From: an uncultured Pirellulaceae bacterium
GTDB lineage: Bacteria; Planctomycetota; Planctomycetia; Pirellulales; Pirellulaceae
DNA length: 59,863 nucleotides
Direction of reading: 5' to 3'
Assembly (NCBI GenBank): GCA_937929805.1
Contig: CALFUT010000039.1
Coordinates: 1-59,863, forward strand
The notes below the pieces were generated by a model. That model was not told the DNA's origin and made no database searches. It worked only from the letters and a program-made list of their open reading frames with translations. Below, in pieces: positions 41,624 to 59,150 of the stretch (the first letter of the stretch is position 1; every line of letters starts with the position of its first letter). The position numbers and the translations under genes are program-made.

Positions 41624-41627
41624 GGTT

Positions 41628-41668
41628 GGAATGCGGAGTGCGGAATGCGGAATGCGGAATGCGGAATC
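41628..41668 (+). repeat. Heptamer tract GCGGAAT, left edge of element A
   Basis: Five or more units with one variant (GCGGAGT) begin a few bases after the MoxR stop codon. The same unit occurs at 13322-13350 and, inverted, at 13439-13474. Confidence 0.85.
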
Positions 41669-42092
41669 CCACGTTCAAACCCAATGGTACAAAATTTCGT
41701 TTGATCCCTAGAGTGAGAGTAAGTCAGTTTAAACCCGAAGGTGAGGAAATTTGTTTGAGTTCAGAAGAGGCTGTGATTTTATGGAAACATGGCCCGATAA
41801 TACCAGCCGTTTGGGCGCTAGCCCCGGACAATGGTGGTTCGTCCGTGGCTAGCGCCAAAACGGCTAGAAAAATCACAGCGCCGAAGGGGCGGAGCGATGA
41901 CAGCCCAAGGCAACGCCTTGGGTTTTGAGTGCAAAGATCATGAAGCCCTGAAGGGGCGGCGTTAAGAGCTTAGGGCTGGCCCGTTGGGCCGACATTTGTT
42001 TTGGAAATCTCGTTCCCAAGGCGTTGCCTTGGGCTTACATAGAGCTGCTCCTTCGGAGCGTTGATATTTCACGACTCAAACGGCACATTAAA

Positions 42093-42187
42093 AACAGAAA
42101 CCGCACACCTGAAACCTGACAACCGAAACCTCACACCGAAAACTGAAAACCGAAACCTGTCACCTCACACCGAAAACCGAAAACCAC
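42093..42187 (+). repeat. Drifting heptamer tract, right edge of element A
   Basis: Successive 7-base blocks such as CTGAAAC, CCGAAAC, CTCACAC, CGAAAAC and TGAAAAC keep a strict 7-bp period while the unit changes. It ends 26 bases before the DUF58 start. Confidence 0.75.
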
Positions 42188-42213
42188 TTCCTGCCCCCTT
42201 TTAACTTTTCCTC

Positions 42214-58489: not shown

Positions 58490-58495
58490 GGGGGG

Positions 58496-58662
58496 CAGTT
58501 TTCAGTTTTCAGTTTTCAGTTTTCAGGGTTCAGGGTTCAGGGTTCAGGGTTCAGGGTTTAGTGTTCAGGGTTTAGTGTTTGGTGTTTGATGTTTGATGTT
58601 TGCGGGTCTGACATCTGAGATATGGGGTCAGGTGTCTGAGGGTCTGAGATCTGGTGTCTGGG
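58496..58662 (+). repeat. Heptamer tract, left edge of element B
   Basis: At least 20 consecutive 7-bp units, from TTTTCAG (four times) through GGTTCAG (four times) to units ending in TCTG. The period holds although the unit changes. Confidence 0.85.
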
Positions 58663-58742
58663 ATGAGGGGCAACGTTTAAGAGTTCAGGCCCGAAGGGTC
58701 GGCCCTATGCCAGCCCAAGGCAACGCCTTGGGTTTTGGGCAC

Positions 58743-58777
58743 AAAAATCACGAAGCCCCGAAGGGGCTGTGATTTTT
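58743..58777 (+). terminator. Strong hairpin inside element B
   Basis: AAAAATCAC (58743-58751) pairs with GTGATTTTT (58769-58777), and AGCCCC-GAA-GGGGCT forms the top of the stem across a 2-base bulge. The T5 at the 3' side and A5 at the 5' side make it terminator-like in both directions. It lies 254 bases after the map stop. Confidence 0.6.
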
Positions 58778-59011
58778 AAGAGAGCAAGGTTCGTAGTAAA
58801 GCCTTTCGGTTGTCGTCTTCAAGCGACTGAAGCCGCTACTACCAACGGCGCGAACCACTTAGTGAACCACCTGTCACAAAAAATCACAACCTCGAAGGGG
58901 CGGCTTTAAGCGATTAGGGCTGGCCCGTTGGGCCGACATTGATTTCTCGAACCGTGGCCCCAAGGCGTTGCCTTGGGCTTACCTAGGCCTGCTCCTTCGG
59001 AGCGTTTTATT

Positions 59012-59145
59012 TTCACGATTCACGATTCACGATTCACGATTCACGATTCACGATTCACGATTCACGATTCACGATTCACACTTCACACTTCACACTTCAC
59101 ACTTCACACTTCACACTGAAAACTGAAAACTGAAAACTGAAAACC
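59012..59145 (+). repeat. Heptamer tract, right edge of element B
   Basis: About nine ATTCACG units, five CTTCACA units and four CTGAAAA units follow one another with no break in the 7-bp period. The tract ends 5 bases before the epimerase ATG. Confidence 0.88.
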
Positions 59146-59150
59146 AACCC

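Follow-up and report, generated by a model that had tools for sequence, protein, structure and literature searches.

Elements A and B, two intergenic segments of the window (the whole 59,863-nucleotide stretch of DNA analysed here), are very likely non-autonomous, REPIN-like miniatures of about 200 bp, in which the two ends of a small element of an HUH/Y1 transposase (TnpA) are joined without the gene. We read them as ends-only TnpA miniatures because a covariance model of the end, R1, derived from TnpA flanks elsewhere, matches all four of their ends, and because the stems of these ends covary. The strongest single result is that R1, built from the transposase flanks of other genomes, picks out exactly the two elements singled out by the first-pass annotation. 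That annotation had listed a non-autonomous element among several possibilities, and this option is supported: the anatomy of the ends, the covariation of their stems, their inverted arrangement around HUH transposase genes, their recurrence as inverted pairs without a gene, their spread and their absence from orthologous spacers are all observed.

Anatomy of the ends and their surroundings

Each end follows one plan: hairpin H1 with a 5-bp stem and a triloop, an NNAG foot, hairpin H2, about 25 nt, and hairpin H3, again with a 5-bp stem and a triloop (Table 1). In the ends of A and B, H2 is CCCAAGGC-AAC-GCCTTGGG; the exact hairpin CCCAAGGC-nnn-GCCTTGGG occurs at eight places in the genome, four of these in A and B. 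When the nested inserts are set aside, the two elements share a common plan of about 200 bp; in the left end of A, the 5' arm of H1 has been changed by such an insert. Every block of the ordered core previously reported for A and B was found in the reported order in both, the stems do close on three bases, and the four R1 matches in inverted orientation confirm the suggestion that the inverse CCCAAGGC hairpins resemble the ends of an element. Two details had to be revised. Of the blocks described as separate, GAAGGGGC is hairpin H3, and TTAGGGCTGGCCCGTTGGGC contains its counterpart H3' from the other end; and the shared core is real, but the later inserts given in Table 1 had been merged into it. 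Element A is flanked by a MoxR-type ATPase gene on one side and a DUF58 gene on the other, and element B by genes for an M24 peptidase and a xylose-isomerase-like TIM-barrel protein. A Pfam search of the 102-codon open reading frame across A returned no domain, and the longest of the reading frames of at least 40 codons overlapping the spacer of B has 82 codons.

Table 1. Positions of elements A and B, their parts and neighbouring features in the window
Feature	Position	Strand or orientation	Basis and remarks
Heptamer tract left of A	41628-41667		TRF; judged independent of the element
MITE in A, at the CGAAG tip of H1	41768-41881	not assigned	flanks AGAAG 41763-41767 and CGAAG 41882-41886; inverted ends
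Element A	41871-42066	two inverted ends facing each other	sequence and R1 covariance-model matches
A left end	41871-41972	+	R1 57.2 bits, E 3.2e-14
A left-end parts	H1 41878-41890; foot CAG 41901-41903; H2 41904-41922; H3 41945-41957		sequence
Sub-threshold RF01687 match, H1-H2 of A left end	41877-41922	-	permissive search
A right end, inverse copy	41963-42066	-	R1 51.2 bits, E 1.5e-12
A right-end parts	H3' 41978-41990; H2' 42015-42033; H1' 42047-42059
Imperfect heptamer tract right of A	42091-42182		TRF; judged independent of the element
Heptamer tract left of B	58496-58601		TRF; judged independent of the element
Element B	58681-59010	two inverted ends facing each other	sequence and R1 covariance-model matches
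B left end	58681-58782	+	R1 61 bits, E 2.9e-15
B left-end parts	H1 58688-58700; H2 58714-58732; H3 58755-58767
Sub-threshold RF01687 match, H1-H2 of B left end	58687-58732	-	permissive search
MITE in B, within H3	58764-58892	not assigned	flanks CGAAG 58759-58763 and 58893-58897; genome-wide repeats
B right end, inverse copy	58907-59010	-	R1 46.6 bits, E 2.7e-11
B right-end parts	H3' 58922-58934; H2' 58959-58977; H1' 58991-59003
Heptamer tract right of B	59012-59144		TRF; judged independent of the element

The R1 model was built from the alignment A2, which holds 24 ends flanking TnpA genes in other named genomes, none of them from the genus of the window; these are 24 of the 39 ends found, the window-genus ends and those with misdetected or incomplete hairpins being omitted. 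Over the window R1 gave only four significant matches, one for each end of A and B (E from 3e-15 to 3e-11; the next E is 0.21). Paired cells make up 94.2% of the A2 helices, 12 of the 18 pairs are changed on both sides, and the covariation value of 0.376, compared with 0.135 (sd 0.015) in shuffles, was reached by none of 500 shuffles. Covariation of the stems across genomes, proposed earlier as a check, is thus present. Conservation of the ends starts a few nucleotides before H1. In the foot before H2, AG alone is invariant among the 24 ends of A2, with CAG, TAG and AAG all found. The segment 41881-42066 folds with a z of -8.9 as DNA and -8.7 as RNA.

Such a stable fold and such covariation suit RNA as well as single-stranded DNA. 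An alternative explanation would have the hairpins act in a transcript, as a small RNA such as Acido-Lenti-1 or as a 3'-UTR or terminator element, with the transposase link being incidental or a later capture; the location of both window copies between genes of the same direction, as well as the coverage of H1-H2 by the Rfam model RF01687, agree with this. We nevertheless consider it unlikely, since the ends are paired in inverted orientation, either flanking a TnpA gene or directly facing each other, so that the two ends of a pair would stand in opposite senses in any single transcript; that the ends are inverted copies of each other makes one structured RNA the less probable reading. The strand on which the stems fold adds a weak argument in the same direction: read with the foot 5', the stem cells contain 54 G.T against 3 A.C (30 and 0 in left ends, 24 and 3 in right ends), a signal weakened by the relatedness of the copies and by an alignment fitted to R1. 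In the MAFFT alignment of A2 the counts were 11 and 10, or 10 and 2 without the misaligned rows L155 and L157. The RF01687 matches (9 rows from TnpA loci, 33 of the 39 from phylum loci and 2 out-of-register window rows, 40 of them distinct) carried no strand information, 509 of their 520 stem cells being Watson-Crick pairs.

A genome-wide blastn search with the core of B as query gave 50 matches, many of them to the middle of B alone. Most copies of the MITE found there are about 134 bp long, with the inverted ends GGCTGTGATTTTT / AAAAATCACAGCC; the insert of A differs from it and has the same kind of inverted ends. Both nested MITEs lie at a CGAAG hairpin tip, in H3 of B and in H1 of A. The flanking pentamers are identical in at least four of five positions in 15 of 23 MITE copies, mostly in the form CNNNG, compared with a mean of 4.2 and a maximum of 9 in 1000 shuffles; 22 of these copies, the insert of A included, were found by pattern in 28 loci; six of these loci, that of B included, gave none, and the copy of B was added by hand. 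The nested inserts thus have the terminal inverted repeats and the fixed-length flanking duplication (5-bp CNNNG) that define TIR MITEs. A palindromic target was not significant among the 23 copies (mean arm pairs 2.48 versus 1.88, with shuffles reaching 2.65). Read by eye, the MITE of B contains an inverted pair of GTAG-type hairpins, and its family (L003-L028) may itself carry a REP dimer as a rider in a TIR MITE. Each window copy was struck by its small MITE at the CGAAG hairpin tip after its own insertion.

One could suppose that A and B are themselves classical TIR MITEs moved by a DDE transposase, with a secondary association with TnpA: they have inverted ends, lack a gene and are about 200 bp long, and two real TIR MITEs with 5-bp duplications are nested in them. 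The presence of the same ends at the flanks of HUH TnpA genes makes this highly improbable.

The heptamer tracts described in the first-pass annotation are real and do border both cores; however, they are a separate genome-wide feature and no part of the element. Across the genome, one heptamer pair matches 88 times in forward and 81 times in reverse orientation, compared with 5 and 2 for the control, and among the matches listed only those on contigs C34 and C39 adjoin a CCCAAGGC hairpin. Within a tract the 7-bp phase is kept even where one unit gives way to another (from TTCACGA to TTCACAC to TGAAAAC, for example), a behaviour also seen at loci L106, L109 and L116. Tracts of this kind often stop directly ahead of a start codon, as those of A, B, C34 and L106 do. 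In Beggiatoaceae, heptamer repeats precede start codons according to the accessible text of PMC4679880. Tracts adjoin A and B as well as the C34 copy, as would be expected if they were the element termini and the segments 41624-42213 and 58490-59150 had each moved whole. There is very little chance of this, given that such tracts are lacking by eye at the copies L032, L033 and L034, are found elsewhere without the core, and persist as a short heptamer stretch at the empty B site of genome G010. The contig itself starts (1-226) with a hexamer array of about 38 CTCCTA units detected by TRF, which is possibly the cause of the assembly break.

Transposase genes between the same ends

The genome of the window has ten Y1_Tnp (PF01797) matches above the cut-off, six of them strong, and inverted flank repeats scoring at least 40 were found at five of these six; in a first set of 16 TnpA loci from the genus, 10 reached this score. 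The TnpA gene L092 of the same-genus genome G027 has hairpins on both sides that resemble one end of A in layout and in much of their sequence. With four such TnpAs as queries, a wide scan of the collected genomes yielded at least 555 relatives, of which the best 80 were taken; by record title these come mainly from Planctomycetota, Verrucomicrobiota and Bacteroidota. Among the 77 loci with enough flank, inverted repeats reached a score of 40 in 57 and stayed below it in 20, and 65 loci scored above all 20 of their own dinucleotide shuffles; by comparison, 40 was reached in 1 of 1540 shuffles and at none of 24 MoxR loci. A flank-swap control with up to 12 swaps per locus, in which 35 of the 77 loci reached 40 or more at least once, was dropped because of real homology between loci. 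In an R1 search of 20 of the 21 same-genus TnpA loci (one fragment was omitted), ends were found on both sides of the gene in nine, on one side in four, as an adjoining ends-only pair in one, and not at all in six. Where the gene is present, TnpA is enclosed by the two H3 hairpins.

The HUH motif is present in all 80 proteins of the wide set and the signature Y---Q--HH in 78, the exceptions being L092, with His at the position of the catalytic Tyr, and L049, with His for Gln. The TnpAs of set A1 have a common C-terminus that ends near YxWD. All four TnpAs tested further are Y1_Tnp proteins related to the solved ISHp608 and other IS200-type enzymes; NCBIfam transpos_IS200 scored above its cut-off in three of them, whereas REP_Tyr_transpos was seen in one only, with 23.5 of the 80 bits required. 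Judging by sequence, the TnpAs with the Y---Q--HH signature look like members of subclass 1.2 of Quentin 2018.

A search of the window's own genome found no TnpA with CCCAAGGC stems and no cognate TnpA. Such stems accompany the TnpA L089/L267 from an AT-rich region in a different bin, where R1 finds an end at just one of the two flanks. This locus (G001:C150), with a CCCAAGGC-AAC-GCCTTGGG end beside its AT-rich TnpA, belongs to a bin of the window's genus and appears Bacteroidota-like by eye, which would imply transfer or contamination. In genome G016, the stems at the TnpA on contig C51 differ from those of the many G016 copies read. Other hairpins are found in the inverted flank repeats of the genus Y1_Tnp genes L048, L050, L051, L084, L087 and L091, which suggests several co-existing families of ends.

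Enzymes of the IS200/IS605 and TnpA_REP types cut single-stranded hairpin ends at a site set by a tetranucleotide located 5' of the hairpin. The ends in the window have the order expected of these enzymes, foot then hairpin, each on its own strand. By analogy with this known chemistry, we infer the movement of the ends by TnpA, the strand that is cut and any present-day mobility. TnpA would bind the hairpins of each end as single-stranded DNA, with the foot 5' of H2 guiding its choice of cut, and would join both ends via a single-stranded intermediate, excising and re-inserting the segment between them; copies without the gene would move in trans. The guide sequences of such enzymes are treated in PMC8266576, as far as its accessible text goes.

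Copies without a gene and empty orthologous sites

The core had been proposed for a search in this genome and its relatives, and its copies do recur outside the window. Within the genus, R1 ends (E<=0.001, scoring up to 142 candidates per genome) were found in 13 of 28 genomes, with at least 20 in the window's own genome, at least 55 in G027, at least 112 in G016, and 1 to 18 in the others. All ten genomes with a TnpA of this type (E<=1e-15) also have ends, three have ends only and 15 neither; that is, 15 of the 18 genomes without TnpA are also without ends (Fisher 2.2e-5, uncorrected for kinship or completeness). In a sample of the phylum, R1 ends (E<=1e-5, up to 20 candidates per genome scored) occur in 52 of 199 genomes and in 41 of 157 genera. 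From 47 sources, mostly chosen because R1 had matched there, 88 ends formed 38 inverted pairs; 37 of these span 196-221 bp, and B is longer, 330 bp, because of its insert. Copies L033 and L034 have both ends and no insert, and L031, L032 and L039 have one end each. At one locus of the same phylum (L361, G068:C5:230752-235461) R1 ends are repeated at a 302-bp spacing, indicating that the elements can also form tandem arrays.

Empty orthologous sites were another check suggested at the outset, and spacers that are empty or too short were found for both elements. For A, the spacer between MoxR and DUF58 is no longer than about 200 bp and lacks the element at 17 of the 25 MoxR loci of the genus (the window's own included); 13 of these spacers were located by script and four read from the sequence, and all were judged independently of R1. 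The L134 spacer contains a short segment, possibly a remnant. In G010, the closest genome, the MoxR-DUF58 spacer is 381 bp long and contains an apparent decayed right end. The remaining loci are one with another open reading frame between the two genes, five in which the spacer was not located and the window's own. For B, both neighbouring genes are kept only in G010 among the 25 other loci, with a spacer of 98 bp without the element, compared with 664 bp here; B was therefore either gained since the divergence from G010 or lost in that genome. The apparent decayed right end in G010 together with its empty B site indicates that A is the older of the two.

Acido-Lenti-1 and other known systems

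At the gathering score, no Rfam family matched anywhere in the window. In permissive searches of A and B, RF01687 (Acido-Lenti-1) matched the left ends with 20.5 and 18.6 bits, below its gathering threshold of 37 bits, and no match was reported at the right ends; rows for Scr3202, MIR8706 and RRE were far below their gathering scores and were judged to be chance matches on palindromes. On the strand opposite to that of the end, the two hairpins of RF01687 correspond to H2 and H1. At 20 TnpA loci taken from the 80 and chosen for clear hairpins, nine matches above the gathering score were found in seven loci, two of which had them at both ends. Twenty phylum loci chosen through R1 gave 39 matches at E<=0.01, and the gathering score was reached in 15 of these loci; 38 of the 39 matches, including all 25 above the gathering score, lie inside an R1 end on the opposite strand with a single offset of 6 nt, an overlap that concerns loci found through R1 or TnpA. 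At locus L369 of G180, R1 ends flank an open TnpA reading frame on both sides.

According to the accessible text of Weinberg 2010 (PMC2864571), the motif is a probable RNA, not cis-regulatory, from Acidobacteria and Lentisphaerae; it is catalogued as a 46-nt small RNA, and its model is without H3, the inverted partner and TnpA. The function of Acido-Lenti-1 is called little known in the accessible part of a 2026 paper (PMC13298647), and no link to a transposase was found in the accessible portions of the literature that mentions it. Our analysis suggests that what RF01687 describes is probably in the first place single-stranded DNA and not RNA, namely the outer half of the end of a class of mobile elements in Planctomycetota, Verrucomicrobiota and Bacteroidota. 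This class would comprise TnpA genes of subclass 1.2 between inverted ends of three hairpins each, and gene-less copies, A and B among them, mobilised in trans. A catalogued small RNA thereby receives a concrete re-reading, and the genomes annotated with it can be checked for inverted partners and TnpA genes.

The earlier opinion that A and B belong to no described family holds in part. Their kind, REP/REPIN-like repeats of tyrosine transposases, and their fragment RF01687 are catalogued; the whole element, with three-hairpin ends and gene-less copies, was not found described in the main texts of the open-access papers searched. The inverted pairs of hairpin units repeated in spacers that characterise REPs and REPINs are present here (the 38 pairs, and the R1 matches of the window's own genome). 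As described in the accessible text of PMC3733652 and PMC3116915, REPINs and REP dimers of RAYT (TnpA_REP) are likewise gene-less inverted hairpin pairs repeated in spacers, and their hairpins are also those at the flanks of an HUH/Y1 transposase gene, but they have one hairpin per end instead of three. In addition, A and B have an NNAG foot instead of the strict GTAG (or GTRG), and the TnpAs of their type have the Y---Q--HH signature, are of the IS200 type in NCBIfam and lack the REP-associated label, which places them outside the RAYT class. Because of the foot and the transposase class we do not file A and B as RAYT REPINs, although they appear to work like one.

The insertion sequences that target REP palindromes (PMC1525189, accessible text) parallel the MITEs nested at the hairpin tips of a REP-like element, with the differences that our inserts are short MITEs, not full insertion sequences, and that target palindromy was not significant in the copies compared. 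TIRtrons, the elements of TIRYT (Di Nocera 2013, PMC3733652, accessible text), resemble the present elements in having tyrosine transposase genes between long inverted repeats, some of them double-palindromic, that are repeated in the genome. The same source notes that R. baltica has numerous tyrosine transposase genes flanked by repeats, and these may include relatives of the present elements. In our data such flanking by ends holds for the nine same-genus loci noted above, and the copies of the window's own genome and of G016 differ in their stems from the TnpA ends examined. The TIRYTs fall elsewhere in the classification of Quentin 2018 (PMC6006769, accessible text), 20 of 26 in subclass 2.1 and the other six in 2.2 and 2.5.

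A close counterpart is TnpA_Y1 subclass 1.2 of the latter study (accessible text), with which the TnpAs described here share their nearly universal Y---Q--HH signature and their closeness to IS200 transposases. Members of this subclass are reported there as generally without the terminal structures of IS200, and mostly from Cyanobacteria and Bacteroidetes. The present TnpAs differ in their conserved three-hairpin ends, in the inverted structured flanks at most of their loci (the 57 of 77), and in their abundance in Planctomycetota and Verrucomicrobiota. Structured ends and gene-less copies would, as far as the literature found goes, be new for subclass 1.2; with them, transposases said to be as a rule without structured ends would acquire a conserved architecture of their ends together with a family of miniatures.
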